A DNA stretch of 23,643 nucleotides from a virus, in the IMG/VR virus record IMGVR_UViG_3300032287_004066, positions 1-23,643 of that record; one strand, written 5' to 3'. A program made the translations under genes and the position numbers. Positions 961-18,399 of this stretch are shown here, in pieces. The notes below the pieces were generated by a model, which was given only the letters and a program-made list of their open reading frames with translations, was not told the DNA's origin and did no database searches. Every line of letters starts with the position of its first letter. Position 1 is the stretch's first letter.

Positions 961-1003
961 TATCTTACCAAAATCCACAATATTTATTACAAATAACACG
1001 AAT

Positions 1004-2056: not shown

Positions 2057-2086
2057 AGGAGTTGTAGTAGGAGCAGTGCATTGCAA

Positions 2087-2094
2087 TATTTATA
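2087..2094 (+). promoter_or_regulatory. TATTTATA octamer, putative phage late promoter element
   Basis: This is an exact TATTTATA, 3 bp before the 2098 ATG. The same octamer precedes 3784, 6598, 10073 and 15940. With only 3 bp to the start codon, any transcript that begins about 6 bp downstream would be leaderless or start inside the gene, so its role here is less certain than at the longer-spaced sites. Confidence 0.5.
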
Positions 2095-2097
2095 GAC

Positions 2098-2355
2098 ATG
2101 GCAACATTTAAAATTAAAGCTGAAGATAAAGCAGCGTTTATCAACAAACTGGAAAAATTAGGGATAAAAGTAAGTACTGCTAATATGAAAAGTGGAACTG
2201 ATTCCCGCGGAGGTAAAACTATAAAATGGTTTACATTCGACGTTCCAAATCCGGATGATGTTAAACAAATAAAAGCAATGTTACGTCAATCACCTGCTAT
2301 TACAAAGTTAAAAGAAGAAATTAGAAGAGAAATAAAAAAATATTTGGAATCGTAA
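2098..2355 (+). CDS. Small basic protein of unknown function, 85 aa
   Basis: The 85-residue product is rich in Lys and Glu, with a helix-strand-helix look: an N-terminal KAEDKAAFINKLEKLGI helix, a central strand GGKTIKWFTFDVPNPDD, and a C-terminal charged helix (KLKEEIRREIKKYLES). The pattern suggests a compact alpha/beta fold, perhaps nucleic-acid or protein binding, but no family is recognised. It has no signal peptide. It is the first gene after the divergent nuclease gene and is preceded both by the TATACGTATA region and by a TATTTATA octamer. Confidence 0.7.
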   Translation: MATFKIKAEDKAAFINKLEKLGIKVSTANMKSGTDSRGGKTIKWFTFDVPNPDDVKQIKAMLRQSPAITKLKEEIRREIKKYLES

Positions 2356-2444
2356 AAAAGTTTCGGTAACTTCAACCTACGGTTGGTTTGAGAAATAGGG
2401 GAATGGGGAAACCGGCGCCGGGGTTAGAAATAAAAATAATAATT
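2356..2444 (+). promoter_or_regulatory. Structured leader with hairpin and CCGGCGCCGG palindrome
   Basis: This 89-bp gap holds a CAACC-TAC-GGTTG hairpin (2373-2385), then the G-rich stretch AGGGGAATGGGG, then a perfect 10-bp palindrome CCGGCGCCGG (2412-2421), which is striking in such AT-rich DNA. An A/T-rich run leads into the 2445 start. It may be a terminator/leader pair or an RNA control element. The reading frame of the next gene could extend back through it to a TTG at 2388, which I do not favour. Confidence 0.35.
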
Positions 2445-2648
2445 ATGCGTTATAAAAACAATGTTTTAGACAAATTAGAGCAACTAAATTCAACAGCAAA
2501 TCGAATTCAATTTCAAATAAACAGAGGAGGAACTCAAGATCAAGTTACCGAATCGATTGAAATGTTAAAAGAACAAATTGAAGGTATACGTGAAGTTATT
2601 TCTGTAGAATCTGATGATTTTGAACAGCAATTTGCACCAAGACAATAA
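2445..2648 (+). CDS. Small coiled-coil-like protein of unknown function, 67 aa
   Basis: The product from ATG 2445 starts MRYKNNVLDKLEQLNSTANR and is almost entirely helical in pattern, with heptad-like spacing of Leu/Ile up to about residue 50, then an acidic tail. I chose ATG 2445 over the TTG at 2388 because AATAATTATG matches the A/T-rich starts used across this window, and because the extra 19 codons would cross the GC palindrome. It ends 2 bp before the next gene and is probably co-transcribed with it. No family is recognised; a small adaptor or oligomeric protein is possible. Confidence 0.7.
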   Translation: MRYKNNVLDKLEQLNSTANRIQFQINRGGTQDQVTESIEMLKEQIEGIREVISVESDDFEQQFAPRQ

Positions 2649-2650
2649 TT

Positions 2651-2923
2651 ATGATGTGGAGTTGGTTAATAGGAATTCACGTTATTGAATTAATTGCTGT
2701 TGGTATATTCTTTCTTATTAGACGAAATTATATACTTGAAAAAGCAATTAACGATCAACAACAATACATTAATGCTATAAGCATTATTGTTGCTAATTCT
2801 GACGCTAAATTAAAAGAATTAGATGTAATGGGTGCTTTTCAAGCAGACGATGAAGTAGGAACTTTCTTTGCTAATTTAAGGGAAATCCAAGATATATTAA
2901 ATGAATTCAATAATCGTAAATAA
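2651..2923 (+). CDS. Small membrane-anchored protein, 90 aa
   Basis: One N-terminal membrane segment (about residues 4-24, LIGIHVIELIAVGIFFLI) is followed by RRNY, which predicts an N-out/C-in orientation, then a mostly helical, acidic cytoplasmic part (DVMGAFQADDEVGTFF, IQDILNEF). Small single-span proteins of this layout are common in T4-like marine phages, but I cannot name a function. A holin is one possibility given the endolysin at 9208, yet it is far from that gene and sits in an early-looking block. Two adjacent ATG codons (2651, 2654) offer alternative starts. Confidence 0.7.
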   Translation: MMWSWLIGIHVIELIAVGIFFLIRRNYILEKAINDQQQYINAISIIVANSDAKLKELDVMGAFQADDEVGTFFANLREIQDILNEFNNRK

Positions 2924-2926
2924 CGA

Positions 2927-2958
2927 TTTGGCTGTGTGATTTTCTCTCATTATATTGG
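2927..2958 (+). promoter_or_regulatory. Host-type (Bacteroidota) promoter for the late sigma gene
   Basis: TTTG at 2927-2930 is followed after 20 bp by TATATTGG at 2951-2958. This matches the Bacteroidota primary-sigma consensus TTTG-N(17-23)-TAnnTTTG at 7 of 8 positions of the downstream box. It lies 22 bp before the 2981 ATG. The same pattern is found before the primase gene (18844-18874). Confidence 0.5.
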
Positions 2959-2980
2959 GATTAAAAATTAGGAAATCACT

Positions 2981-3754
2981 ATGTCATATTTTGATACATA
3001 TGGTGCCGATATATTCGATGACGACAAATTGGCACTCACCAAACGAGGTAAACCGCGTAAGCGTAAACCAAAAGAACCTCGTATTTACTTTACTCAAGAC
3101 ACTGAAGACGCGATTGTGGAATATCTTGCCTGTACGGATCAAGATGAACGCAATCGCATCTATAATGAACGTATTGAATATGGCTTTTATAAATTAGCCG
3201 AAAATATTATTCATACGTTTAAATTTTACTATACGGATACTGATACGATAGAGGAACTCAAACACGAGGTTATTACATTTTTACTTGAAAAGCTTCACCT
3301 TTACAAACCTGAAAAAGGTAAGGCGTTTTCCTACTTCGGTACGATTGCTAAACGTTATCTAATTGTTTACAATGAGAATAATTATAAGAAACTTCAAGAA
3401 CGAGCTGATGTAGATGAATCTGATGACGATCAAATGCAGCTTTATGAGAATGATAGAAGTTTAGAGAACTTATTTAATGAAAATAATTTTATGGATCATT
3501 ATATTAGATATATTGATGCTCATATATTTAAATTATTTCCTAAAAAACAAGATGCTCAAACAGCAGACGCAATTGTTGAATTATTTCGTAAACGTGAAAC
3601 GCTGGAGATATTTAATAAAAAAGCACTATACATTTATATACGTGAAATAACAGATGTATCTACTCCTCAAATTACCAAAATAATTAAAAAACTTAAAGCA
3701 TTGTACATCCAGCTATACAATGATTATTATCAACATGGATATATAAAGATTTAA
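2981..3754 (+). CDS. gp55: gp55-like late-transcription sigma factor
   Basis: The 257-residue protein has a sigma region 2-like core at about residues 70-140: LAENIIHTFKF, an acidic helix TIEELKHEVITFLLEKLHLY, KPEKGKAFSYFGTIAKRYLI, then ENNYKKL. This pattern is characteristic of T4 gp55-type sigma factors, which bind host RNA polymerase core and recognise a single -10-like late promoter box. It is longer than T4 gp55 (185 aa). The extra C-terminal part (about 218-245, YIREITDVSTPQITKIIKKL) looks like a helix-turn-helix. The gene has a host-type promoter and lies directly upstream of the structural block, whose operons each start with TATTTATA. Assignment as a late sigma is fairly secure; the HTH is inference. 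Confidence 0.75.
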   Translation: MSYFDTYGADIFDDDKLALTKRGKPRKRKPKEPRIYFTQDTEDAIVEYLACTDQDERNRIYNERIEYGFYKLAENIIHTFKFYYTDTDTIEELKHEVITFLLEKLHLYKPEKGKAFSYFGTIAKRYLIVYNENNYKKLQERADVDESDDDQMQLYENDRSLENLFNENNFMDHYIRYIDAHIFKLFPKKQDAQTADAIVELFRKRETLEIFNKKALYIYIREITDVSTPQITKIIKKLKALYIQLYNDYYQHGYIKI

Positions 3755-3761
3755 TTACTTA

Positions 3762-3769
3762 TATTTATA
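3762..3769 (+). promoter_or_regulatory. TATTTATA octamer heading the gp5 operon
   Basis: An exact TATTTATA lies 14 bp before ATG 3784, in a 29-bp gap after the sigma gene. It overlaps TATACGTA (3766-3773), a near copy of the palindrome seen at 2045 and 20612. If it acts as a -10-type box, transcription would start about 8 bp before the ATG. Confidence 0.55.
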
Positions 3770-3783
3770 CGTAAACGCAAATT

Positions 3784-4185
3784 ATGTCTAATTTTGATGA
3801 TGTTACAATATTTGGAAACACATCACTAGCTGACCTGTTCAAGCAGATCCATAGGAATAATAAAGATGTTGATAAACAAATCAACGAGCTCATTGATACT
3901 CTTAAACCTATTGCTACTTCTAACGCCGGTTCTGCAGTGATGTTAATGCCTACTGTTAAAGATTTAATTGATGTTAACGTTAAAAACAACGAACAATTAA
4001 TTAAAATGGCGGGTATAGCACAACGTGCTGCTACTGCTAATGCTACTCAAGATACAGGATTTATAGATATGGATGAAATAAGTGCTCTTTTAGAAGAACA
4101 AAAAACTATACAAGAACAAGGTCAAAAATTATTAGAACAAATTCCTCAACAACCTCAAATTGAAGTAAATGGTAGTAAGGTATAA
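3784..4185 (+). CDS. Conserved-looking phage protein of unknown function, 133 aa, before gp5
   Basis: The N-terminal stretch FGNTSLADLFKQIHRNNKDV is followed by helices (QINELIDTLKPI), a central hydrophobic VMLMPTVKDLIDVNVKNNEQL and a Gln-rich coiled C-terminus (LLEQIPQQPQIEV). The pattern recalls small conserved proteins of T4-like marine phages found beside tail genes, with no assigned role. Its 3' end overlaps the gp5-like gene by 17 bp, so the two are translationally coupled and probably functionally linked, for example as a baseplate assembly factor. It is the first gene after the 3762 octamer. Confidence 0.7.
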   Translation: MSNFDDVTIFGNTSLADLFKQIHRNNKDVDKQINELIDTLKPIATSNAGSAVMLMPTVKDLIDVNVKNNEQLIKMAGIAQRAATANATQDTGFIDMDEISALLEEQKTIQEQGQKLLEQIPQQPQIEVNGSKV

Positions 4186-5335
4186 TTTAGGATCTATAAT
4201 TTCTTCTATTGGTAAAAATAATTATACACCTCCTAATAAGTCACAAATTGGAAGAGTATATGGAGTTGTTACTACTGAAAATACCCCTACTAAAAAACAA
4301 TTTGAACGTGCTGGTGGATTTAGTGGGATAGGTACTATATTTTATTTAGATTATGCTCAATCTAAAAATATAGTAGGTAATATAGATGATGATTTTTATG
4401 ATACTTGCAAACCAGCCAAACCTTTAAGTCCTCAAGATCAATACTACCCAGTTAACGGGGAATTAGTTTTTATAGAACAAGGACCCTCTCCTGTATCCCA
4501 AATATCTAATACAGCAGGGTTTAAATATTATTCAATAATTAATTTATGGAATAATTCCCAACAAAATGCCCAACCAGCAAATAATGATGCTAGTTTAGGT
4601 CTTACATTCTGTGAAAATCCAGATGTTAGACCTCTAATACCGTACGATGGGGATAATATATTAGGAGGAAGACAAGGGTCTTCTTTAAGATTTACTAGTA
4701 CAACAAGAGGAGTAACTCCAGAAAATGAATGGAGTGAAATAGGAGTAAAATGTGACCCTATTACTATATTAACAAATGGATTAGATTATGACCCAAATAA
4801 AAATTACTATATTGAGCAAATAAATAAAGATAAATCATCAATATATTTAACTTCAGCTCAAAAAATACCCTTAATAACAGATAAAACAGGAGTATTAAAT
4901 AATTTAACTAATCCTTTAAATGTTCCTGATTATATAAATTCTCAAATTATATTAAATAGTGATAGAGTAGTATTAAACTCTAAAGCAGATGATATAATGA
5001 TATTTGCTACTAAAAATATTGAAATTAATACTAAAAATATTATTAATTTAAATGCAGATGAAAGAGTACATTTAAATGCTAATACTGTATTTTTGGGACC
5101 TTACCCTAAAGCCGGTCCCCAACCTGTATTATTAGGATGGGAAACCTATAAAGTATTTAAACATTTAACTAAAACTCTTAGTAAACTTTCATCTCAATTA
5201 TCTAGTGCTGTTAGTACTCAAGAAGGCAGTGCTATAACAAGTTTACAAGTTGCTGGGAAAGAACTATCAAGCAATATAAAAAAGTTAAATAAATTATTAA
5301 AAAATATTCCTTCTAAAAATGTATTTACTTCATAA
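4169..5335 (+). CDS. gp5: gp5-like baseplate hub / central spike protein
   Basis: The 388-residue product resembles the gp5-type hub protein of T4-like cyanophages and related phages. An N-terminal OB-fold-like region (about 25-130: IGRVYGVVTT, YPVNGELVFIEQGP, SIINLWNN) leads to the linker EWSEIGVKCDPITILTNG (near 187) and DKSSIYLTSAQKIPL. Then comes a repetitive strand-rich stretch (about 257-308: IILNSDRVVLNSKADDIMIF and following repeats), as expected for the trimeric beta-prism needle. A C-terminal helical tail follows PVLLGWETYKVF. T4 gp5 (575 aa) has an inserted lysozyme domain; none is visible here. It overlaps its neighbours by 17 bp and 1 bp. Confidence 0.8.
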   Translation: MVVRYNLGSIISSIGKNNYTPPNKSQIGRVYGVVTTENTPTKKQFERAGGFSGIGTIFYLDYAQSKNIVGNIDDDFYDTCKPAKPLSPQDQYYPVNGELVFIEQGPSPVSQISNTAGFKYYSIINLWNNSQQNAQPANNDASLGLTFCENPDVRPLIPYDGDNILGGRQGSSLRFTSTTRGVTPENEWSEIGVKCDPITILTNGLDYDPNKNYYIEQINKDKSSIYLTSAQKIPLITDKTGVLNNLTNPLNVPDYINSQIILNSDRVVLNSKADDIMIFATKNIEINTKNIINLNADERVHLNANTVFLGPYPKAGPQPVLLGWETYKVFKHLTKTLSKLSSQLSSAVSTQEGSAITSLQVAGKELSSNIKKLNKLLKNIPSKNVFTS

Positions 5336-6585
5336 TGGGTAAAAAAAATATCAATATAGCAGCTATTCTCCCCCCAGATATTGTATCAACTATATCTGAT
5401 TCACTTCCTATTGAATCATTTGGAGCTCAATTAAAAGATAAAGCTAAAGAAATTCTTGTAGTAGGAAATCAAACAAAAATAGCTGATTTAAAAGCCGAAA
5501 TTGATTTATTAGTCCAAAAAGAACAAAAAGCAGGAGTTGAAAAAAGTAAAACAGAACAAGAAGCTTTATATAAACTCAATACAAAACAAATAACTCAAGA
5601 GCAGTATAATAAATTAGTAGAAGCTGCTTCTATTTCATTAGTAGCAACTCAAGCTATTACTAATATTAATAGACAAAAGTTACAACAAGATATAAATAAC
5701 ATCACTAATAATGTATATACAAACATAAAACAAGCCCAAACAAGTTTTAATGCAGATATTAAAGATACAGAAAAATATATTCAAAAACAGGATAACAAAT
5801 CTAGAAAAGATTTATCAAAACAAATTATATCCAATGCAGTTAAGGGATTAGTTCCTATTATTAGCTTATCAATAGCAAATAGTTTTTTAGTTATTGTAGA
5901 TCAAAGAAAAAAATTAGAAGAATTAGTTGATAATGTAAATGAATATATTGATACTAAAGTTAAGGATCAACAAACAGTTGAAATAGCAACTAATTTAAGA
6001 AATAACGCTATTACTTTAATTAATAATAGTATTAATAAATTAGAAAAATTAAAAAAATTACTAGAAAAAATTGCTAAAATATTAGTAATAACCTCACTTG
6101 TTATTAAATTAATATATTTAATTCCTATTCCTTTAAGCCCATTAATACTAAAAATTCTAACAGTAGCTGAAAAACTTGTCTCAGGATTAAGTGCCTTATT
6201 AGCAATTATTACGGTATTATTATCTAATGAAATATTAGAATTAGAGGAATTAAGAGATCGTCTAAAACAAATTAGTTTAAAATTAGATGGAAAAACATTA
6301 GATAATTTAAATGAACAACAATTATCAGACCTGTCTAATACATTCTTACCTGTAGGAACAGGAACTGGTGTTAATCAATTTCCATCATATAAAGGATTTA
6401 ATTTTAAAATAAAAGAAGAACAAAATCCAAAATTTGTTGTTAAAGGAAATAAACGTCGTTATGCCGTAGCTATTGATCGTTATAATGTGGAAATATTAAA
6501 AAGTGAATATTCATTTACATTAGATCCTAACGACTTAATAGAACAATTAAAACTAGTTATTGATCAACAAAACTTACAAGGTTAA
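5335..6585 (+). CDS. Coiled-coil structural protein, tail/hub candidate, 416 aa
   Basis: This Gln/Lys-rich, almost entirely helical protein has a long coiled coil (about 40-235) and a hydrophobic block (about 245-300: ILVITSLVIKLIYLIPIPL, LSALLAIITVLLS). It ends in a small compact C-terminal domain (about 370-412: RRYAVAIDRYNVEILKSEYS, LDPNDLIEQLKLVID). The start ATG overlaps the stop of the gp5-like gene (TAATG), so the products are likely partners. Long coiled coils with hydrophobic patches are typical of tape-measure or baseplate hub proteins (the T4 counterpart would be gp29), but I see no decisive motif. A tail or hub role is inferred from position and architecture. Confidence 0.65.
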   Translation: MGKKNINIAAILPPDIVSTISDSLPIESFGAQLKDKAKEILVVGNQTKIADLKAEIDLLVQKEQKAGVEKSKTEQEALYKLNTKQITQEQYNKLVEAASISLVATQAITNINRQKLQQDINNITNNVYTNIKQAQTSFNADIKDTEKYIQKQDNKSRKDLSKQIISNAVKGLVPIISLSIANSFLVIVDQRKKLEELVDNVNEYIDTKVKDQQTVEIATNLRNNAITLINNSINKLEKLKKLLEKIAKILVITSLVIKLIYLIPIPLSPLILKILTVAEKLVSGLSALLAIITVLLSNEILELEELRDRLKQISLKLDGKTLDNLNEQQLSDLSNTFLPVGTGTGVNQFPSYKGFNFKIKEEQNPKFVVKGNKRRYAVAIDRYNVEILKSEYSFTLDPNDLIEQLKLVIDQQNLQG

Positions 6586-6586
6586 A

Positions 6587-6594
6587 TATTTATA
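6587..6594 (+). promoter_or_regulatory. TATTTATA octamer heading the gp25/gp6 operon
   Basis: An exact TATTTATA fills 8 of the 12 bp between the 5335 gene and ATG 6598, ending 3 bp before the start codon. The 3-bp spacing is the same as before 2098. It implies either a leaderless transcript or read-through expression of the first gene, with the promoter serving the genes downstream. Confidence 0.5.
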
Positions 6595-6597
6595 ATT

Positions 6598-6957
6598 ATG
6601 AATACTAAAGCATTTAAAAGATTAATCAAGGAAGCTGTAATTGATGCTATTCATGAAGAATTACCATATATTCTTGAAGAGCACATGGCTAAACAAGAAA
6701 AAAAAGCATTACGTGAAAATAAAACAATAAGTCTTACTAGTAATAATATAATGCCTGGTGATCCTAATATTAGGGCATCATTGCGTGCCAAAATGGGTGA
6801 AGCATTTGGATTTCAACAACCTGCTTCTAAGTTAGAAGTAATTGACGCTGTTGATGAAAATACAGGAGAAAAAATAAACCCATTTTCTGCTTTTCTAGCT
6901 GACTCTGCAGCCAATATGACTGCTCAAGATTTATCAGGATTAAGAAATTTAGGATAA
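6598..6957 (+). CDS. Phage protein of unknown function, 119 aa, upstream of gp25
   Basis: The N-terminus is a charged amphipathic helix (FKRLIKEAVIDAIHEELPYI, then LEEHMAKQEKKALRE). The rest is an extended region containing MPGDPNIRASLRAKMGEAFG and a C-terminal AFLADSAANMTAQDLSGLRN. There is no signal peptide. It lies 1 bp upstream of the gp25-like gene and so is co-translated with the baseplate wedge genes. Such short helical proteins next to gp25/gp6 are plausible baseplate assembly or minor wedge components; I do not recognise a named family. Confidence 0.7.
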   Translation: MNTKAFKRLIKEAVIDAIHEELPYILEEHMAKQEKKALRENKTISLTSNNIMPGDPNIRASLRAKMGEAFGFQQPASKLEVIDAVDENTGEKINPFSAFLADSAANMTAQDLSGLRNLG

Positions 6958-6958
6958 T

Positions 6959-7363
6959 ATGCCAATACCTCAAACGATACGAGTAAATCCACTTGATTTA
7001 CAAAAAAATATTGCTATTGGGGTATCTTTACCTTTTGACAAACCTTTTACTAGTACGTACACTACTAAAGATCAAATAAAATCTAATTTACTTAATTTAT
7101 TATTAACTACTAAAGGAGAAAGAATAATAAATCCTTTTTTTGGAACAAATTTAAGAAATTTTTTATTTGAAGGAATTAATTCTTTTAATATTGATAATTT
7201 AAGATTGGATTTAATTAATAGTATTAATATTTTCATTCCTGAAATAACAGTAATAGATATTAATATAAGTCCGGATGCTGATTCTAATTTAATGGAGCTA
7301 AGTGTCAATTATCTACTAAATATTTCAAATACACCAGATCAAGTAACAGTACAATTTCAATAA
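6959..7363 (+). CDS. gp25: gp25-like baseplate wedge protein
   Basis: The 134-residue protein matches the GPW/gp25 family in length (T4 gp25 is 132 aa) and pattern. A strand IAIGVSLPFDKPFTSTYTTK is followed by QIKSNLLNLLLTTKGERIINPFFGT, whose KGER..NP.FG turn is the family hallmark, then LRNFLFEGI, and a C-terminal strand pair (VIDINISPDADSNLMELSVN). In contractile tails, gp25 sits in the baseplate wedge core, contacts the gp6 dimer and nucleates the sheath. The gene is followed 2 bp later by the gp6-like gene, the same order as in T4. Confidence 0.9.
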   Translation: MPIPQTIRVNPLDLQKNIAIGVSLPFDKPFTSTYTTKDQIKSNLLNLLLTTKGERIINPFFGTNLRNFLFEGINSFNIDNLRLDLINSINIFIPEITVIDINISPDADSNLMELSVNYLLNISNTPDQVTVQFQ

Positions 7364-7365
7364 TA

Positions 7366-9198
7366 ATGATTAACGAAGATAAGAATATATCATATCTAAA
7401 TAAAGGATTTACAGATTTTAAAACTGCCTTACAACAGTATGCTAAAACTTATTTTCCAACAACATATAATGATTTTTCAGAAGCTACTCCTGGAAATATG
7501 TTTATTGAAATGGCATCATATGTTGGTGATGTTATGTCATTTTATTTAGATACTCAAACACAAGAGAATTTTCTTTTATATGCTAAAGAAAAAGAAAATT
7601 TATACGCTATGTCATATGTAATGGGTTATCGACCTAAAGCATCATATGCTTCAACTACTACTGTTGATGTATATCAGTTAGTTCCATCTATTACTAATGG
7701 AGGAATTACAACTCCTGATTATGATACTTATGGATTAATTATTCCTGCAAATACTCCTATAACATCAAATAGTACAGGAATTAAGTTTTTAACTACACAA
7801 CAAATAGATTTTACTGATACAGGTAGTGTCGAAATCAGTTATGTTGATTCTAATTATTACCTATTTAAGAAATCTATTCCAGCCATATCAGCTGAGATTA
7901 AATCAACTACAGTATCATTTTCAGGTAATGATAAATTTGCAACAGCTGATATAAATGATACTAATACATTACAAATACTAAATGTTACTGGAAGTGATGG
8001 AAATATATGGTACGAAGTACCTTATTTGGCTCAATCGTCAATTTTTCAAAAAGTAGCTAATCCTTCATATTCAACAGACCAAGTCCCTTATTTATTACAA
8101 CTACAAAAAGTACCTAGGCGTTTTGTATCTAGAATACTCTCAGATAATACATTACAATTAGAATTTGGAGCTGGATTATCTCAAAATAAAACAGATTCAC
8201 AAATCATACCTACCCCTGATAATATTCAATTAGGTTTAGTACCTGGAATTTCATTATTAACTAATAATTATAATGAAGCTTCAGTAATGTTTACTCAAGA
8301 ATATGGGTTAGCTCCTACAGGAAGTATTAATATTACCTATTTAGTAGGAGGAGGAATAACATCTAATATTCCTGCTAATGATTTAACTATTTTAAATACA
8401 TCTGGTATTTATTTTAAAAATACTCCGGGAGGAGCAGCAGCCACCGTTTTAGCTAGTGTTGTATCTAATAATCCTATTCCTGCAACAGGTGGTAGAAATG
8501 GAGATACAACAGATGAAATTAAACAAAACGCTTTATATTCATATTCAACTCAATTAAGAGCAGTAACTAAAGATGATTATATAGTAAGAGCATTATCAAT
8601 GCCTTCAAATTATGGTGTGGTTGCTAAAGCTTATATTTCTCAAAATATGAGCGACAATCCTCAACAAACAGTAACTTATACACAACCTAATAATCCTTTA
8701 TCTTTAGATTTATATGTTTTATCATATAATTCAAATAAACAAATAATCCAAGCTTCCACAACATTAAAAGAAAATTTAGTAACCTATATTAATCAATATA
8801 GAATGGTATCTGATGCTATTAATATTAGAGATGCATTTTATATTAATATAGCAATAAATTTTGACATTACTATATTAAGTGGATTTTCAAATAAAGATGT
8901 ATTAACTAGTTGTGTAACGGCTTTACAAAATTATTTTAATATAGATAAATGGCAAATAAACCAACCAATTATCATTTCAGATGTAATGGCTACTTTATTA
9001 CAAATAAGGGGAGTACAATCTGTATCTAAAATAGAGATAATAAATAAACAAGATAGTACTGGAGCTACCTATTCCCAATATGGATATGATATAGCAGGAG
9101 CTACAAGAAATGGAAACATATATCCATCTATGGACCCCGCTATATTTGAAATTAGATATCCTAATACTGATATTCAAGGCAGAGTAGTTACTCTATAA
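7366..9198 (+). CDS. gp6: gp6-like baseplate wedge protein (baseplate J family)
   Basis: The 610-residue protein (T4 gp6 is 660 aa) shows the gp6/baseplate-J pattern. Its N-terminal helical part includes YFPTTYNDFSEATPGNMFIE, SYVGDVMSFYLDTQTQENFL and MSYVMGYRPKASYAS. A beta-rich middle includes LQLEFGAGLSQ and NITYLVGGGITSNIP. Next comes NGDTTDEIKQNALYSYSTQL with RAVTKDDYIVRALSMPSNYG. The C-terminal domain carries the INIRDAFYINIAINFDIT and ISDVMATLLQIRGVQSVSKI segments. gp6 dimers form the ring of the baseplate that ties the six wedges together. Order and spacing with gp25 support the call. Confidence 0.9.
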   Translation: MINEDKNISYLNKGFTDFKTALQQYAKTYFPTTYNDFSEATPGNMFIEMASYVGDVMSFYLDTQTQENFLLYAKEKENLYAMSYVMGYRPKASYASTTTVDVYQLVPSITNGGITTPDYDTYGLIIPANTPITSNSTGIKFLTTQQIDFTDTGSVEISYVDSNYYLFKKSIPAISAEIKSTTVSFSGNDKFATADINDTNTLQILNVTGSDGNIWYEVPYLAQSSIFQKVANPSYSTDQVPYLLQLQKVPRRFVSRILSDNTLQLEFGAGLSQNKTDSQIIPTPDNIQLGLVPGISLLTNNYNEASVMFTQEYGLAPTGSINITYLVGGGITSNIPANDLTILNTSGIYFKNTPGGAAATVLASVVSNNPIPATGGRNGDTTDEIKQNALYSYSTQLRAVTKDDYIVRALSMPSNYGVVAKAYISQNMSDNPQQTVTYTQPNNPLSLDLYVLSYNSNKQIIQASTTLKENLVTYINQYRMVSDAINIRDAFYINIAINFDITILSGFSNKDVLTSCVTALQNYFNIDKWQINQPIIISDVMATLLQIRGVQSVSKIEIINKQDSTGATYSQYGYDIAGATRNGNIYPSMDPAIFEIRYPNTDIQGRVVTL

Positions 9199-9207
9199 AA
9201 CTAATTT

Positions 9208-10029
9208 ATGAAATTACAAAGAGGCGATAATAATATTAATGTAAAACTTTTACAAGAAAAGTTAGGAATAGAGCCTATTGGTAATTATGGACCTAAAACA
9301 GAAAAAGCTGTAAAAGAATTTCAAATCCAACACGGTTTAGAACCTGATGGAGTTGTTAAAGATAAATTATGGGAGTTAATTATGAAAAAATCAATGGCTT
9401 CACCCGTACCACTTCCATTGGTTAATGTAGGTGGCTTAAAATTAGATAAATTAAAAGGACATATCCCTGATAATGTAATTTCTCAAATTCCGGATGTTGC
9501 TGTAAAATTTCAAATTAATACTCCATTACGTTTAGCTCATTTCTTAGCACAATGTGGTCACGAATCTGGAGGATTCAAATTAACAGTTGAAAATTTAAAT
9601 TATAGTTCTAAGTCATTAATGGCTGTATTTAAAAAATATTTTCCAACTCAAGGATTAGCTGAAGCATATGAACGTAAACCTGAAAAAATAGCTAATATAG
9701 TGTATGCTGATAGAATGGGTAATGGTGACAAAGCATCAGGTGAAGGATATAAATTTAGAGGACGTGGTTACATTCAATTAACAGGTAAATCTAATTATAA
9801 AGCATTTGGAGATTCAATTGGAGTTGATACTATTGCTAATCCTGACCTAGTTGCTACTAAATATCCACTACTATCAGCGGCTTGGTTTTTTCAACGCTGT
9901 ATGAAAAAATGTGATGCCGGAGCTTCAGATGAGGTTATAACTGCTGTTACAAAATGTGTTAATGGTGGTACTAATGGTTTAGTAGATCGCATGAAACATT
10001 TTAAAGAATACTACACTTTATTATCCTAA
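9208..10029 (+). CDS. Modular endolysin: peptidoglycan-binding domain plus GH19 lysozyme/chitinase-like domain
   Basis: Residues 1-58 form a PG_binding_1 domain (LQRGDNNINVKLLQEKLGI, YGPKTEKAVKEFQIQHGL, DGVVKDKLW). After a Pro-rich linker, residues about 75-273 match GH19: RLAHFLAQCGHESGG with candidate catalytic Glu119, ADRMGNGDKASGEGYKFRG with second Glu179, RGRGYIQLTGKSNY, and AAWFF. GH19 phage enzymes cut the glycan strand of peptidoglycan. No signal peptide is present, so release needs a holin, or the enzyme is carried on the tail. The gene sits 9 bp after gp6 inside the baseplate operon. Because the gp5-like hub lacks a lysozyme domain, a tail-associated role in cell entry is a real alternative to host lysis. 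Confidence 0.85.
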   Translation: MKLQRGDNNINVKLLQEKLGIEPIGNYGPKTEKAVKEFQIQHGLEPDGVVKDKLWELIMKKSMASPVPLPLVNVGGLKLDKLKGHIPDNVISQIPDVAVKFQINTPLRLAHFLAQCGHESGGFKLTVENLNYSSKSLMAVFKKYFPTQGLAEAYERKPEKIANIVYADRMGNGDKASGEGYKFRGRGYIQLTGKSNYKAFGDSIGVDTIANPDLVATKYPLLSAAWFFQRCMKKCDAGASDEVITAVTKCVNGGTNGLVDRMKHFKEYYTLLS

Positions 10030-10047
10030 AATAGTTTACAGTCGCCA

Positions 10048-10055
10048 TATTTATA
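10048..10055 (+). promoter_or_regulatory. TATTTATA octamer heading the large baseplate/appendage operon
   Basis: An exact TATTTATA lies 17 bp before ATG 10073, in the 43-bp gap after the endolysin gene. The spacing fits a -10-type box with transcription starting about 11 bp before the start codon. Confidence 0.55.
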
Positions 10056-10072
10056 TGTAGTAATCACTAATT

Positions 10073-11170
10073 ATGGCTGTTTATAAAATATTTCCTGAAA
10101 AAACTGCTACTCTCTATTCATATTATCCTACAGTTAATACGGGATTAGATGAATTAATTGAGTTAAGTACATTTTATACTGTAACAGGTACTAATGAAGT
10201 ATCTCGTGGGTTAATTAAATTTCCATCAAGTCAAATAACTAATATAATTGCTAATAATGTAACAAATAAAGCATTTGATGTTTATTTAAAATTATATCTA
10301 TCTAATGCATCATCACTTCCTTTAGATTATACCCTATATTGCCATCCTGTTTCAGGAAGTTGGAATATAGGAACAGGCAAATTAGGAAATACTCCTATTA
10401 CTACAGATGGAGCCAGTTGGCAATTTAGGAATGTACTTAGTGGCAGCACATGGTTCAGTACATTCCCTGCAGGTACAACTGGGTCTTTCAGATCAGGAAG
10501 TACAGTTGGTGGTGGATTATGGTATACATCTTCTGTTTATCAATCAACACAATCATTTACTAATTCTACTTCAAAAGATATAGAATTAAAAGTAACAAAT
10601 ACTGTAAGTGCATGGTATAGTAGTTCAATTTCAAATGAAGGATTTATTCTTAAACATAATTCTTCACTTGAATTTACTACTGCTTCTAAATTTGAAACTA
10701 AATATTTTGCTGGAAATACTAATACTATTTATCCCCCATGTTTAGAAATTAGGTGGGATGATTCATCATATAGTACAGGATCCCTAGCTATAATTACTTC
10801 TAGTCAATTTGTTGCTACTTTAGGTAATAATAAAGGAGAATTTCAACAAGACTCAGTACAACGCTTTAAAGTAAACGTAAGAGATAGATATCCTGTTAGA
10901 ATATTTACAACTACCTCTGGATATTTAGTTAATAAAGCTTTACCTTCTTCTTCATATTGGTCAATAAAAGATTTGGATACTGAAGAAATTGTCGTAGATT
11001 ATGATACATTATATACCAAAATAAGTTGTAACTCCTCAGGTAATTATTTTGATATCTATATGAATGGATTAGAACCAGAACGATATTATAAATTATTATT
11101 TAAAACTATCCTATCAACCGGTGAAACAATAGTTTCTGATAATAATTACATTTTTAAAGTTATAAGATAA
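10073..11170 (+). CDS. Structural protein with DNRLRE-like jelly-roll domain, 365 aa
   Basis: The first about 215 residues follow the pattern of DNRLRE-type jelly-roll domains: KTATLYSYYPTVNTGLDELI, then SRGLIKFPSS, a strand AFDVYLKLYLSNAS, YTLYCHPVSGSWNIGTGK, DGASWQFRN, and YPPCLEIRWDD closing the domain. DNRLRE and related modules are usually surface-exposed and carbohydrate-associated. Residues about 240-365 form a second beta-rich part (RFKVNVRDRYPVRIFTTTSG, YFDIYMNGLEPERYYKLLFK). Its position after gp6 corresponds to that of T4 gp7/gp8, so it may be a baseplate periphery or receptor-contact protein. It overlaps the next gene by 1 bp. Domain assignment is by eye. Confidence 0.65.
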   Translation: MAVYKIFPEKTATLYSYYPTVNTGLDELIELSTFYTVTGTNEVSRGLIKFPSSQITNIIANNVTNKAFDVYLKLYLSNASSLPLDYTLYCHPVSGSWNIGTGKLGNTPITTDGASWQFRNVLSGSTWFSTFPAGTTGSFRSGSTVGGGLWYTSSVYQSTQSFTNSTSKDIELKVTNTVSAWYSSSISNEGFILKHNSSLEFTTASKFETKYFAGNTNTIYPPCLEIRWDDSSYSTGSLAIITSSQFVATLGNNKGEFQQDSVQRFKVNVRDRYPVRIFTTTSGYLVNKALPSSSYWSIKDLDTEEIVVDYDTLYTKISCNSSGNYFDIYMNGLEPERYYKLLFKTILSTGETIVSDNNYIFKVIR

Positions 11171-11502
11171 TGTCTCAAATACCTGTACAAAAAACAGTAT
11201 TTAATAAGGATGCTTATGGTAGAGTAATTGATACTCAATTTCATCAATTAATCACCCAAGAAACAGAAGAAACCTTATCATTTACTGTTGATGATTTTTT
11301 TATATTATATGAACAACTATTCTATCAAATCCCTAGAGATGGAGATACTAATTCGCACCAGTATATTTTACAAAAAGAAGCAGATTATCTAGGTGTTAGT
11401 ATTAATCAAGATGATGTACAAGCCTTGTTAGATGAAATTACATCTCTAAGACAACAGGTTCTTGATAATCAAACTGTAATAAATGAATTGATCAAACAAT
11501 AA
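11170..11502 (+). CDS. Small structural protein with C-terminal coiled coil, 110 aa
   Basis: The product is acidic overall. It has a first part about 1-60 (FNKDAYGRVIDTQFHQLI, then FTVDDFFILYEQLFYQIPRD), a short SHQYILQKEADYLGV segment, and a C-terminal helix with heptad spacing (VQALLDEITSLRQQVLDNQ) that should form a coiled coil. Its start overlaps the previous stop (TAATG) and its stop overlaps the next start, so it is translationally coupled to both neighbours. It is probably a baseplate connector or a chaperone for the large protein encoded next. No family is recognised. Confidence 0.7.
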   Translation: MSQIPVQKTVFNKDAYGRVIDTQFHQLITQETEETLSFTVDDFFILYEQLFYQIPRDGDTNSHQYILQKEADYLGVSINQDDVQALLDEITSLRQQVLDNQTVINELIKQ

Positions 11503-14500
11503 TGGCAGATAATATAAAAATAGTAGGTGAAATTTTAAATACTCAACAGGTATCTCGTTATACTGAAGAAGACCTCAATATACTTCCTTCTCAATTAATT
11601 AAGGAAGATTTTGGTTTTTCTAACGATTATATTGAATACTTTGTATATGATGCTGGGGGAAATTCTTTAAATACAAATTATAATTATAGAGATTTTAAGT
11701 TAGCTTCTAATTCATACCTTGACCCTACCAGTGGTTCTCTCCCAATAATTGAAATAGATCCTGTTAAAGATCTACAAAGTCTAGGATATTCATCCGGTGA
11801 ATTTAATGTTCAATATAACTTTTTTAGTAATAAAATATCAAATCCTGACGCTGAGTTATTTTTAAAAGAAATATCATCAGATAGAACAGAACTAAGAATA
11901 GGTTCTACAACCCTAACAAACCAGCAAATTGAAGATTCTACATTATCTATTATTAATGAATATAGTGGTTCTTCTTATTTTGTTGACTATTTAGCTAATT
12001 TTGGAAATAATCAACAAGCAGTAGTAGTAAATGTTGCTTTAAATAAAATTGAGTCTGGATATGAAATTTTACTTAAACTCTACCAGCCTCTTCCTATTAA
12101 TATTTTAGAAAAATCAACATTGTGGATTGTAAAAGAAAAAGTCAATCCATATATTTTTGATATTAATCTAGATAAATTAATTATTCCTCTCCCTGGGCCA
12201 CAATTAAGAGGTCCAAATTTTGATATAGAAGTCCCTAATAGAAATAATATTGCTACTTCTTATCAAAACTACAACACTTTACTAAATAACTTCCAAAATG
12301 TATCTTCTTCATATAAACAACTTTTAAATTTAATTACTTCACAAAGTATTGATATTAATACTGATTATAGTAATTTTAATAATTTTGTATTTTTTAGTTC
12401 TGTAGAGCAAAGAATATTAAATTTCTATAACAAAGTAAAACAAATAGAAGATTTAAACAATAACATATCTACCTACACTGCTTTAACCTCTAGTTACCCT
12501 AATTTAAAAAATGATTTAAATTTAGCTACGGCTAGTATTAATAATACTATAGCTAATTTTGATGGATTTGAATATTATTTGTATTTTGAAAGTGGATCTT
12601 TAACTTCTTCATTAGAGTATGGAATAACTCCATACCCTAAATCTAACACAATAAAACCATTTACTTTAGCTCCTACAGGATCTACTTCTGCCTCTCTTTG
12701 GTTAACTTATGCTACATCAAGTGCTAATAATTATGATAATTATAATCAAAATAATTTATTATTTACTATCCCTAATTTTATAAGGGATGATGAAAATAAT
12801 ACACCATATATTACTTTTATTAATATGGTTGGTCATTATTTTGATAATATATGGATTTATCTTCAAGCAGTTACTGATGTTAATTTAGCAAATAATAATT
12901 TAGAAAAAGGTGTTTCTAAAGATTTAGTATATACTGCATTACAATCCTTAGGAACTAAATTATATAACAAATATGGGGATTCATCTAATGATCTTTTCTT
13001 AGTAGGAAAAAATAGTGGAAGTATTAACTTTGATAATAATTTTACTCCTACAGGTTCGTATTTAAATAATATACCTCGTAAAGATTTACTTGCTGAAACA
13101 TATAAACGTATTTATCATAATTTACCTTTACTATTAAAAACTAAAGGTACAGCTTATGGGTTACAGACATTAATATCTACTTTTGGAATTACTAGTAGTA
13201 TATTAAATGTTAAAGAATATGGTGGTTATTTAAAAAGTAATACATTACAAGAATATAACGATGATAAAGTAAGAATAGTATCTAATAGTATAGTAGCTGG
13301 TAATACTTTATCTCCATATATTAGTTTACAACAACAACCTACATCGTCTAGCTTATTTAGAACAAATGATTTACATTATGTAGATATATCGTTTTCTCCT
13401 GAAACTCAAATAGATAAGTATGTATCTGCTTCTATAGCATCTTCTAACCCAACATGGAATATAGATAATTATATAGGAGATCCTGGTTATTTATATAGTA
13501 GTTCATATGATAATTTAAATAGTCAAAGAAATACTTATTATAATTTCACTTCATCATATTTAGATTATGCTGGATTTATTAGATTAATCCAATACTTTGA
13601 TAGTTCCTTATTTAAAATGATAAAGGATTTTGTTCCTGCAAGAACAAACCTATCAACAGGTATCACCATTAACTCACCAGTATTAGAAAGAAACAAAATA
13701 TCATATGCTAAACCAACCTCAACTTCTAAAATATCAGTACTAAATTTAGGATTAAATGGTCCTACTGCTAGTACACAATATACTAGTTTATATAATTATT
13801 TAACAGAAAGTAAAGCAGCTTATTATAATGGAGAAATAAGTGGAAGTATAATTAATTATTATAATGATTGGACATCTAGAAATTTTAATCCTTATTTACT
13901 TTCTATTTCTAATAGTATAGATATTAATTCTTTTAATCATTCAAATTTTAATGTATTATTAAATAATGTGTCATCGAGCATATTATCTGTTACTAGAAAA
14001 TTATTACAACCTATATATTCTATAATAAGTGGAACTTTAGGTTTAGTTGGATATTCTTCTAGTTATTATGCTGAATTACAAGACTCTAATTTATCTTTAG
14101 AATCATATAAACTATCTCGTCATGATGGTGTTAAAATAAGTAGCTTATTATATAACACCTATACTAGCGCTTCATCAACTTATGATGGTGATATATCATA
14201 TGGAAAGACAGCTACTATAGATAAAAATGTAAGAAAAATAGGCTTATTTACAGATATAATTGAATCATCATTTCTACCAGGGAGAAATAGAGTAGCATTA
14301 AAATATCTTGTAGATGAATATGGTGGATTAACAGAATTAAATCAACGCAATAAATATTGGGAAGAAATACAAAGAACCTTTATTGCTGGTGATTATTTAA
14401 ATGTTTCCCAATTTGATAATCAAAAATCTAGCAACCAAAAAACTACAGACGGAAATAAACTTATTTTTGAAAGTGGTTATACTTATTACCCAATATTATA

Positions 14501-15158
14501 TTTTGCAAGCTGTAGTGCTGATCCTATTATATACTTTGAAAATTTAGGTGGTCCTAGTGCTTATAGAGCAACAGCTATAAATATAAGTTCTTCATATTTT
14601 ATAAGTGGATCTTCCCCATTAGGATTTCCTATAGCAGGAGGTGTTGTAAAAAATATATTTAATTATGAAAATGAAGATATAAATAATGTATTTTTTCCTG
14701 GTACTCTTGATAATTTTCCTTCATATTCTATAGCTGAATCTAGTCAATATAATATTCAAGCTGGATTTGATATAACTGTAACTTTACCTGACAATCAATC
14801 AGCTACTTGGTCTTTACAAGTATTTAAAAATAGTGATGTTACTCCTTTATTTGAAAGTTCAAATATATATACTAATGAGACTCCTGTAAATTCATATAGA
14901 ATATTATTTGCTACTGGTTCTGTAGCAAGCGCTCCTTGCTTTAGAGGCCCATCTAATTCTGGAGTTGGTTGGTCAAGTGTTCAATATCCTGTACAAGGTG
15001 ATACTATATTTACAAATTCTAGCCTAACAACCCCAATTAATATTTCAGGATATTTTGCATTATATATACCTGGTACTCCTGATCCTACTTACTATGGTCC
15101 TACTCGCACTATTTCAGGTAATACTCTAGGAAGTGATAGTGGAGTAGATCAATGTTAA
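11502..15158 (+). CDS. Very large baseplate or tail-fibre protein, gp7-position candidate, 1218 aa
   Basis: This is the largest protein in the window. It is rich in Asn, Ser and Tyr, with many SSY/SGS turns as in fibrous virion proteins. The N-terminal part (to about 250) is beta-rich; about 255-350 contains helical stretches (SSYKQLLNLITSQSIDINT). Residues about 525-570 hold a well-defined motif (LLAETYKRIYHNLPLLLKTK, then GTAYGLQTLISTFGIT). The C-terminal 200 residues are again beta-rich, ending in a Gly/Pro-rich tail. Size and place after gp25-gp6 match T4 gp7 (1032 aa), which runs along the wedge periphery. A tail-fibre role is the alternative. No transmembrane or enzymatic motif is visible. 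Confidence 0.65.
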   Translation: MADNIKIVGEILNTQQVSRYTEEDLNILPSQLIKEDFGFSNDYIEYFVYDAGGNSLNTNYNYRDFKLASNSYLDPTSGSLPIIEIDPVKDLQSLGYSSGEFNVQYNFFSNKISNPDAELFLKEISSDRTELRIGSTTLTNQQIEDSTLSIINEYSGSSYFVDYLANFGNNQQAVVVNVALNKIESGYEILLKLYQPLPINILEKSTLWIVKEKVNPYIFDINLDKLIIPLPGPQLRGPNFDIEVPNRNNIATSYQNYNTLLNNFQNVSSSYKQLLNLITSQSIDINTDYSNFNNFVFFSSVEQRILNFYNKVKQIEDLNNNISTYTALTSSYPNLKNDLNLATASINNTIANFDGFEYYLYFESGSLTSSLEYGITPYPKSNTIKPFTLAPTGSTSASLWLTYATSSANNYDNYNQNNLLFTIPNFIRDDENNTPYITFINMVGHYFDNIWIYLQAVTDVNLANNNLEKGVSKDLVYTALQSLGTKLYNKYGDSSNDLFLVGKNSGSINFDNNFTPTGSYLNNIPRKDLLAETYKRIYHNLPLLLKTKGTAYGLQTLISTFGITSSILNVKEYGGYLKSNTLQEYNDDKVRIVSNSIVAGNTLSPYISLQQQPTSSSLFRTNDLHYVDISFSPETQIDKYVSASIASSNPTWNIDNYIGDPGYLYSSSYDNLNSQRNTYYNFTSSYLDYAGFIRLIQYFDSSLFKMIKDFVPARTNLSTGITINSPVLERNKISYAKPTSTSKISVLNLGLNGPTASTQYTSLYNYLTESKAAYYNGEISGSIINYYNDWTSRNFNPYLLSISNSIDINSFNHSNFNVLLNNVSSSILSVTRKLLQPIYSIISGTLGLVGYSSSYYAELQDSNLSLESYKLSRHDGVKISSLLYNTYTSASSTYDGDISYGKTATIDKNVRKIGLFTDIIESSFLPGRNRVALKYLVDEYGGLTELNQRNKYWEEIQRTFIAGDYLNVSQFDNQKSSNQKTTDGNKLIFESGYTYYPILYFASCSADPIIYFENLGGPSAYRATAINISSSYFISGSSPLGFPIAGGVVKNIFNYENEDINNVFFPGTLDNFPSYSIAESSQYNIQAGFDITVTLPDNQSATWSLQVFKNSDVTPLFESSNIYTNETPVNSYRILFATGSVASAPCFRGPSNSGVGWSSVQYPVQGDTIFTNSSLTTPINISGYFALYIPGTPDPTYYGPTRTISGNTLGSDSGVDQC

Positions 15159-15170
15159 AACTAATTAATT

Positions 15171-15905
15171 ATGCCGTTTACACAAACAAAAACATTTAGC
15201 ATAAATCAATCCAACGTTTCTTTAGAAGAAGGGGATAAATTAACTTTTAAATTAGTTTTACAAGGATCTTCTACAAGTAATTTTACTGCTTCTATTTCTC
15301 AAGGATCTTTATATGTAGCATCTTTAGCTGTTGCTACGGGATATGCTTCAACTACCTGTCCCTATTTTGATACAGGATCTATATCAGCATCTATGGCTTC
15401 AGGTTCTTCTACTAATAATATTATAACTCTAGATTCAGGAATAACTAATTTTCATAATAGAAATTATCAATTTATACCTAATCCTCTTACAGGGTCTATA
15501 AACAGTTTATTTGATGAGTATGGGGTTGTTGATTATGAATTCTCAATTAAGCCGTACGATATAGCATTGACTTATTTATCTGATGGAACTTATATTGAAT
15601 CTAGAATTATTACTGCTTCTATTTCATCAAATCTTCTTCAATTACACTTAGATAGTCCTTTATCCAATTTTTATGCTACTAATCTAATATCAGGGTCATA
15701 TAGGAGTTTTTTAATATTATCTAGAAGAGAAGATGAAACTAATGCTTATTTAACCTTTAGAAAACGCAGTGGTGCTACTTCATATGGTTTTGTTATTCCA
15801 TCAAATTTAGCAGCAAATGTACTAGAGAATATAGATACCATTACTAGAGAAGTAAAACAAAAATTATTATCAGATCAATCACAAGTAACAATAAATACTT
15901 TTTAA
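15171..15905 (+). CDS. Beta-rich, Ser-rich virion protein, 244 aa
   Basis: The N-terminal half is strand-rich and Ser/Thr-rich (KLTFKLVLQGSSTSNFTASI). The second half includes YGVVDYEFSIKPYDIALTYL, then LILSRREDETNAYLTFRKR and a C-terminal helix (ITREVKQKLLSDQSQVTIN). It looks like a virion appendage or baseplate accessory protein. It is separated by 12 bp from the 1218-residue gene and shares its Ser/Asn/Tyr-rich composition. There is no TATTTATA in the 12-bp gap, so it should belong to the same transcript. No specific family is recognised. Confidence 0.65.
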   Translation: MPFTQTKTFSINQSNVSLEEGDKLTFKLVLQGSSTSNFTASISQGSLYVASLAVATGYASTTCPYFDTGSISASMASGSSTNNIITLDSGITNFHNRNYQFIPNPLTGSINSLFDEYGVVDYEFSIKPYDIALTYLSDGTYIESRIITASISSNLLQLHLDSPLSNFYATNLISGSYRSFLILSRREDETNAYLTFRKRSGATSYGFVIPSNLAANVLENIDTITREVKQKLLSDQSQVTINTF

Positions 15906-15912
15906 TTTAATA

Positions 15913-15928
15913 TATTTATAGTATATAC
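15913..15928 (+). promoter_or_regulatory. TATTTATA octamer joined to GTATATAC palindrome
   Basis: TATTTATA (15913-15920) is immediately followed by GTATATAC (15921-15928), 11 bp before ATG 15940. This is the only site where the two recurring intergenic motifs of this window abut. Confidence 0.55.
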
Positions 15929-15939
15929 AATAGAAAATT

Positions 15940-16602
15940 ATGGCAATTTTAAATCCTACAACAATTACTGTAGATGCAATATTAACCACAAAGGGTCGTG
16001 AATTATTGGCTCGTAATGATGGATCATTCAAAATTACACAATTTGCATTAGCTGATGATGAAGTTGATTATACTTTATATAACCCAACTCATCCATCTGG
16101 CTCTGCATTTTATGGTGAAGCAATTGAAAATGTTCCTGTATTAGAAGCATTTCCTGAAGATTCTCAAGTAATGCGTTATAAATTAGTAACATTACCTCGT
16201 GGAACCTCTAAATTACCTGTTCTTAATCTTGGTTATACTAGTATTACACTTAAACAAGGTGCTTCATTAACTATTACTCCGCAAACATTGAATTATGTTG
16301 GTAGTACAAGCACATTTGAAGCTAATGGGTATGTTGCTACAATTGCTGATTCTCGTCTAATATCTGCATTTACTGGGACCGGTATTACAACAACAACTCC
16401 TGTTCAAGGATTAAATACAACTACAGGAGCTGTATTATCAGTGACCCAAGTAGGTACTTCATTTACATTAACTGGAACTACAGTTAATACTTTGTTCGGA
16501 ACAAGTTTGACTACATTAACAACTACCATTACCGTTATTGGTAGAGATAGTGGTGCTAGAATTACTATTCCTTTAAATATTCAAAAAGTATCAACAATAT
16601 AA
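15940..16602 (+). CDS. Virion structural protein, N-terminal conserved domain plus beta-rich C-terminus, 220 aa
   Basis: Residues 1-90 form a compact domain (ILTTKGRELLARNDGSFKIT, QFALADDEVDYTLYNPTHPS, then VPVLEAFPEDSQVMRYKLVT) of a kind found in virion proteins of T4-like marine phages. Residues about 95-220 are Thr-rich and strand-rich (SITLKQGASLTITPQTLNY, TTITVIGRDSGARITIPLNI), resembling an Ig-like or adhesin module. It is the first gene of an operon with the two paralogous proteins that follow. A role as appendage or baseplate decoration is inferred. Codon choice is slightly richer in CGT/GGT than in the neighbours. Confidence 0.7.
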   Translation: MAILNPTTITVDAILTTKGRELLARNDGSFKITQFALADDEVDYTLYNPTHPSGSAFYGEAIENVPVLEAFPEDSQVMRYKLVTLPRGTSKLPVLNLGYTSITLKQGASLTITPQTLNYVGSTSTFEANGYVATIADSRLISAFTGTGITTTTPVQGLNTTTGAVLSVTQVGTSFTLTGTTVNTLFGTSLTTLTTTITVIGRDSGARITIPLNIQKVSTI

Positions 16603-16610
16603 TTTAAAAT

Positions 16611-17531: not shown

Positions 17532-17538
17532 TTTATGT

Positions 17539-18390: not shown

Positions 18391-18399
18391 AATAAGTTT

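Follow-up and report, generated by a model that had tools for sequence, protein, structure and literature searches.

A putative late promoter box, a variant of the T4 late box, before virion operons of T4-like phages

A sigma gene and repeated boxes at the locus

The window examined is a 23.6-kb viral fragment (i.e. IMG/VR record IMGVR_UViG_3300032287_004066, positions 1 to 23,643) encoding a gp55-like sigma factor that is followed on the same strand by four operons, two genes of which resemble baseplate wedge genes (Table 1). A short box, ATATTTAT, precedes each of these operons and, on the evidence of its conservation and of the genes that it precedes, is very probably the late promoter box of a large T4-like phage family that mostly infects Bacteroidota. 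A megablast search of the window against phage records gave no match.

The first-pass annotation of the window had recognised the element in a slightly different register, as five exact + strand copies of TATTTATA. These were recovered at 2087, 3762, 6587, 10048 and 15913, lying 3, 14, 3, 17 and 19 nt, respectively, before an ATG. The described distribution over gaps within 3755-18399 was also reproduced, the word being present in gaps of 29, 12, 43 and 34 nt and absent from the 12-nt gap at 15159-15170 and from gaps of ≤9 nt. The word itself was not enriched, with nine occurrences on both strands of the window as compared to 10.7 in shuffled sequences, and there were one + strand site (13488) and three minus-strand sites inside genes that had gone unmentioned. 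Placement, unlike count, was far from chance. Intergenic sequence comprises 5.2% of the bases of the window and 1.1% of those of 3755-18399; five of the six + strand sites were intergenic (binomial P = 2e-6) and five gaps held the word versus 0.34 in shuffled gaps (P ≤ 0.0005). The shifted word ATATTTAT was sharper, with 6/6 of its + strand sites and 0/2 of its minus-strand sites falling in gaps. The sixth of these sites (980-987), before an open reading frame (ORF) starting at 1004 whose relative in another locus (L091) is 91% identical, had been overlooked because it reads TATTTATT. Not every promoter has a box, none being present in the gaps that lead to 2981 (sigma), 18879 (primase) and 20642.

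Table 1. Features of the window (coordinates are positions in the window)
Feature	Position	Strand	Remarks
Predicted late-type box ATATTTAT	979..992	+	word 980-987; -13..-6 octamer 979-986; predicted +1 A 992; before ORF 1004-1264
Predicted late box ATATTTAT	2085..2098	+	word 2086-2093; predicted +1 2098 = A of ATG, predicted leaderless class
85-aa ORF	2098..2355	+	first gene after box
Host-type promoter of sigma gene	2927..2957	+	TTTGG 2927-2931; TATATTG 2951-2957
Sigma factor	2981..3754	+	257 aa; gp55-like sigma region 2 (about 35-150) and C-terminal four-helix domain
Predicted late box ATATTTAT	3760..3773	+	word 3761-3768; predicted +1 A 3773; 11-nt leader; 84/85 orthologous gaps
Operon 1	3784..6585	+	three unannotated late genes 3784-4185, 4169-5335, 5335-6585; orthologs of immuto_153-155 by order
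Predicted late box ATATTTAT	6585..6598	+	in 12-nt gap; word 6586-6593; predicted +1 6598 = A of ATG, predicted leaderless class
Operon 2	6598..10029	+	6598-6957; gp25-like baseplate wedge 6959-7363; gp6-like baseplate wedge 7366-9198; endolysin/chitinase 9208-10029
Predicted late box ATATTTAT	10046..10059	+	word 10047-10054; predicted +1 A 10059; 51/57 orthologs
Operon 3	10073..15905	+	10073-11170, 11170-11502, 11502-15158 (1218 aa), 15171-15905
Predicted late box ATATTTAT	15911..15925	+	word 15912-15919; predicted +1 region 15923-15925; 5/5 orthologs
Operon 4	15940..18852	+	15940-16602, 16611-17531, 17539-18390, GIY-YIG nuclease 18400-18852

Conservation of the box and its relation to the T4 late promoter

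A scan of IMG/VR with the sigma protein confirmed at least 599 sigma-bearing stretches, the best 80 of which were taken, and gap statistics were derived from 802 gaps in 81 loci. The closest isolated phages were Flavobacterium phage vB_FspM_immuto (160 kb; hereafter immuto) and Microcystis phage Mel-JY01 (190 kb), with the sigma and gp6-like wedge proteins of immuto exhibiting 48% and 45% identity, respectively, to those of the window. Motif discovery across the gaps of relatives, which had been suggested as a check, returned ATATTTAT as the top enriched intergenic 8-mer (277 occurrences versus 3.4 expected from coding sequence). The signal was directional, with only 26 occurrences of the reverse complement, and an expectation-maximisation motif search from random seeds produced TATATTTAT. 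The box was kept, while its flanks diverged, in 84 of 85 orthologous gaps after the sigma gene, and was present before gene 6598 in all 44 orthologs, before gene 10073 in 51 of 57 and before gene 15940 in 5 of 5. Two box-less junctions of the window that were tested (i.e. before 15171 and 16611) were box-less in the few relatives found as well. Gap enrichment and orthologous conservation, together with the association with late genes in immuto described below, bear out the initial reading of the element as a late promoter box.

The T4 late box is an 8-bp element spanning -13 to -6 with a T at -13 (PMC2988020). When the sites were anchored on a conserved downstream A as +1, the box read (T/C/A)ATATTTA at -13..-6. 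In this alignment it is T4's TATAAATA with AA replaced by TT at -9/-8 in the same orientation, and hence a variant rather than a strict member of the T4 class; TATAAATA itself was found in 1-9% of the gaps of these genomes. The substitution also brings the box nearer to the host TAnnTTTG.

The first-pass annotation had been headed by the idea of an inverted T4 late box whose sigma would recognise the flipped sequence. Taken as a string, TATAAATA reverse-complemented is indeed TATTTATA. The T4 box is, however, a near-palindrome (TAT-AA-ATA) in which reverse complementation alters nothing but the two bases at the centre, so that 'reverse complement' and 'AA to TT' are one and the same statement, and the direct match to T4 is already 6/8. 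Relative to the box, both the conserved +1 A and the genes are placed as in T4, so that a flip need not be invoked. The register was also off by 1-2 nt, the last A of TATTTATA being unconserved (information content 0.04) and the A before it near-invariant (0.98), and the register that fits the T4 spacing of -13..-6 is TATATTTA. Additionally, Y97, the T4 residue that reads A-12, appears to be retained in the sigma. Inversion is therefore highly improbable: of the proposed 'changed or flipped' box, the change is the better reading.

Late promoters of KVP40, 44RR, S-PM2 and Aeh1 likewise combine a gp55-family sigma with a TATA-like box; these are reported to resemble the T4 consensus closely, with changes at -13/-12 in Aeh1, whereas TT at -9/-8 is not described there (PMC2988020).

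Promoter classes and predicted leaderless late genes

Two classes of promoter were observed in immuto. Genes of the late region, the bounds of which were set by the analyst from the annotation, had an [AC]TATTTAT box before them and no upstream element; these were genes for terminase, portal, sheath, tube, tape measure and structural proteins. Early genes, mostly small ORFs, were preceded by AGTTG-N20-TATMTTTAGGTATC, a host-type -33/-7 arrangement that can be summarised as TTG-N20-TATMTTTA. The late region contained 18 late-type and 3 host-type promoters as compared to 9 and 34, respectively, in the remainder of the genome (P = 1.2e-6). The classes could not be told apart solely by whether the base following the box is a T. 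At 60-76 kb of immuto (L151), small ORFs form a long run in which each has a near-identical early promoter, AGTTG-N20-TTCNTATMTTTAGGTATCAATAATTAAA. In the host-type promoters of relatives (e.g. L034 and L037), a GGCAAA-like element is located after the TTG element and ahead of the -7 element.

The late class has no conserved -35 or other upstream element and, as in T4, consists of a single -10-like box before virion genes. With the Bacteroidota primary-sigma promoter (i.e. -33 TTTG / -7 TAnnTTTG) it shares the position relative to +1, a TA..TTT core and the lack of a Shine-Dalgarno leader; it differs in having no -33 TTG element, an A in place of the G after TTT, a fixed TA in the variable positions and an association with mostly late genes. 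The sigma gene of the window and of closer relatives is preceded by the host-type TTTGG..TATATTG pair, and a late box was found before the sigma gene in none of 78 non-redundant relatives. A sigma gene behind a host-type promoter and virion genes behind the late box is the order expected of a cascade from host sigma to phage sigma to virion genes. Terminators were more frequent before gaps with a late box than before promoterless gaps (24/131 versus 23/310; P = 0.001).

The fourth nucleotide after the 9-mer ATATTTATN was A in 87% of leadered sites (86% without near-duplicates), and the simplest reading is that this conserved A is the transcription start. Box-to-ATG distances were bimodal (n = 300), being exactly 3 nt in 84 cases, 4-10 nt in only 13 and 11-22 nt in most of the others. 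At a distance of 3 nt, the ATG begins exactly at the position of the conserved A. Coincidence of the ATG with the predicted +1 in 84 of 300 cases implies that a class of late mRNAs is probably leaderless, starting at the AUG. Among all ATGs located 9-14 nt from the first base of the box, across all loci, 99 of 116 were at offset 12 and belonged to about 11 unrelated gene families as compared to 1-5 at any other offset (binomial P about 1e-4 on families). Gene 6598 had this offset in 44/44 orthologs, with protein similarity starting at that Met, and for the box at 2086-2093 the ATG was exactly at +1 in 13 of 33 orthologs. A residual ambiguity of 1 nt attaches to the immuto lineage, in which the box is [AC]TATTTATA and close ATGs are at offset 12 or 13. 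At one of the six window sites (15912), the exact predicted +1 (15924) is a T flanked by A on both sides.

Published maps of Bacteroidota transcripts place leaderless mRNAs at 5.5% in Flavobacterium psychrophilum (PMC9723704), leaders under 10 nt at 3.7% in Bacteroides thetaiotaomicron (PMC7366714) and leaders longer than 10 nt at 87% in F. johnsoniae (PMC6847099). The distance of 4-5 nt from the -7 element to the start site in F. johnsoniae (PMC6847099) agrees, for a Bacteroidota host, with the register of the box proposed here.

The same distances bear on whether the box is a translation-start or RNA-processing signal rather than a promoter. Such a role would suit Bacteroidota, which lack Shine-Dalgarno sites, and at two sites in the window 3 nt lie between the box and an ATG. 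Against it, the box-to-ATG distance ranges from 3 to >25 nt and the box also occurs alongside Shine-Dalgarno leaders. Furthermore, operon genes that follow one another closely have no box before them, the box and host-type promoters largely complement each other in their distribution, and a separate signal, AATTAAAA, precedes ATGs. The earlier conclusion that the box has no ribosome-binding role is supported. A signal acting on the RNA is accordingly given very little weight.

The sigma factor as a candidate reader of the box

Searches of sequence libraries identified sigma-70 region 2 in the product of 2981-3754 (best 2.2e-6; 17/32 members). The AlphaFold model of this protein (mean predicted local distance difference test score 71.5) had T4 gp55 as its best solved match (7D7C_F; Z 9.9, root-mean-square deviation 2.7, 110 residues). 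Comparison of the sigma profile with a gp55 alignment gave an E of 0.0011 at 20% probability over 98 colinear columns, and the immuto sigma matched phrog_234 with an E of 0.008. The gp55-like sigma gene noted earlier just upstream of the block is, by fold match and profile comparison, probably a distant relative of gp55. No match was obtained in a sequence search of the PDB with the sigma profile, and the C-terminal four-helix domain (165-257), predicted alone, had no clear fold match (best Z 5.0). In each large relative, only one clear region 2 sigma was found.

The altered bases of the box may be matched by changes in residues of the sigma. T4 gp55 flips out A-12, which stacks on Y97, as well as A-9 (N13 and H95) and A-8 (T99) (PMC7892883). 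Y97 aligns with a tyrosine (Y118 in the window) that shows no variation in either family. N13 (A-9) aligns with T, and T99 (A-8) with G (window lineage), Q (immuto) or S (Mel-JY01); the position of H95 is F or Y in these sigmas, F also being present in several true gp55s. The pattern is suggestive, in that reader and base appear both kept at A-12 and both changed at -9/-8. Features in common with the T4 system are the use of a single -10-like box that lacks a -35 element and precedes virion genes, a phage-encoded minimal sigma with a predicted region 2 fold, the A at -12 and, apparently, the tyrosine reading it. The differences are AA to TT at -9/-8 with apparently changed pocket residues, many predicted leaderless starts, a four-helix domain at the C-terminus where gp55 has a short tail, and no detected gp45-type clamp.

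The pairing of sigma and box was compared between phages. True gp55 is encoded in two records (phrog_234; E 2e-62 and 3e-63), which were enriched for TATAAATA and had [AC]TATTTAT in 0/66 and 0/56 gaps, whereas large relatives with the window-type sigma (i.e. G001, G002 and immuto) had the new box in 28-33% of gaps. Mel-JY01, which has Shine-Dalgarno leaders (39% versus 15% shuffled), still carries the box before portal and tail genes (13% of gaps). In more divergent relatives from contigs of metagenome-assembled genomes, down to about 41% identity, the box followed the sigma gene in 7/8. A simple rule of 'sigma present = box present' failed in both directions for 26 endolysin-sharing records, owing to the fragmentary nature of the records and to the use of a different sigma by one lineage. 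A second phage lineage (L172 1354-2181; L170 1354-2184; G011) encodes a full RpoD-like sigma, and its genes are preceded by both host-type TACCTTTG/TATATTTG and late-type ATATTTAT.

The mechanism proposed begins with transcription of the sigma gene itself from its host-type TTTGG..TATATTG promoter. Host RNA polymerase with the gp55-like sigma (2981-3754) would then open the late box, a single -10/-7-type element of the form (T/C/A)ATATTTAT without a -33 element, would start at the A four nt after ATATTTATN and would activate the virion operons in the manner of T4. For roughly one box in four, +1 would coincide exactly with the start codon, producing leaderless late mRNAs and, presumably, leaderless translation. 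This explanation as a whole, a late promoter for a gp55-like sigma that varies the T4 box by AA to TT and has a leaderless subset, is advanced with considerable confidence. Motif, directionality, gene class, orthologous conservation, conserved A and exact 12-nt offset are established at the level of sequence.

Several observations weigh against this explanation. The fold match to gp55 is tied with one to region 2 of sigmaE (Z 9.4-9.7), and the alignment of the sigma with T4 gp55 has only 12-18% identity. A T4-type sliding clamp (gp45, PF02916) was undetected in seven records, with T4 as a positive control; other clamp types and gp33 were not searched. The huge phage LR756508 has the sigma (43% identity) and no box in the 100 kb examined. 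Conversely, G011-type phages have the box (23 versus 0.4 expected) with an RpoD-like sigma, and no relative of the window sigma was detected in G011 and its relatives. The TATATTTA core is also present in the early promoters of these phages, and the +1 and the leaderless class are predictions from sequence. In view of LR756508 and G011, the assignment of sigma to box is likely rather than settled: the product of 2981-3754 is likely to be the reader, the link is not exclusive and another sigma may read the box. Two phage lineages have possibly converged on one late box.

Sharing of the core by early promoters and the pairing in G011-type phages also favour an alternative in which the box is a Bacteroidota -7 element without a -33, is recognised by the host primary sigma or by an RpoD-like copy of it carried by the phage, and is turned on late by another factor. 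Likewise, TATATTTA is similar to TAHHTTTG, which in F. johnsoniae is paired with a weak -33 element (PMC6847099). However, late and host-type promoters serve different genes, many late boxes of immuto have a C at the near-invariant A position, the near-invariant G-5 of the host box is an A in the late box, and the box is retained in Mel-JY01, which uses Shine-Dalgarno sites. Reading by a host-type sigma is consequently judged unlikely, and recognition by the gp55-like sigma is preferred. A broader proposal, judged about as likely as not, is that ATATTTAT is a late code shared by Bacteroidota phages and read by at least two sigma types (i.e. gp55-like, through the changed -9/-8 pocket with the A-12 tyrosine kept, and RpoD-like), with truly leaderless late genes that would include the gene before the baseplate wedge genes.

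No prior description of the box, whether as TATTTATA in a phage promoter or in connection with late promoters and Bacteroidetes, was found in the open-access papers searched. The box would represent the first late-promoter consensus found for a large, mostly uncultured T4-like family, the at least 599 sigma-bearing stretches of which would have late operons readable from sequence. Two aspects are new beyond the first-pass annotation and are the most interesting parts, namely the altered specificity at -9/-8 and the late genes predicted to be leaderless. The former suggests a natural specificity switch in gp55, from A-9/A-8 to T/T with matching changes in the pocket, that is testable with an existing cryo-electron microscopy structure. 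The latter are predicted from the constant distance between box and ATG, in a phylum whose leaderless messages are a minority (e.g. the 5.5% of F. psychrophilum; PMC9723704), and would bear on ribosome initiation without Shine-Dalgarno sites in Bacteroidota.

Other features were noted outside of the box-bearing regions. The end of the window (20642-23643), after an exonuclease gene, contains a gene for a TonB-dependent receptor/outer-membrane barrel (748 aa; PF14905, 1.9e-22) and an ORF with a lipoprotein-like start. Neither had a counterpart in any other fetched locus, and they are possibly host cargo or an assembly join. The sole clear minus-strand gene (1458-2006) encodes a T5orf172/MUG113 domain and had 41 tblastn hits among the fetched loci. 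GC content was 42% at 1-2000 versus 25-32% elsewhere in the window. In immuto, the region at 18.6-37 kb (L150) carries genes annotated for queuosine/7-deazaguanine DNA modification (i.e. QueC, QueD, QueE, FolE, QueF and DpdA).

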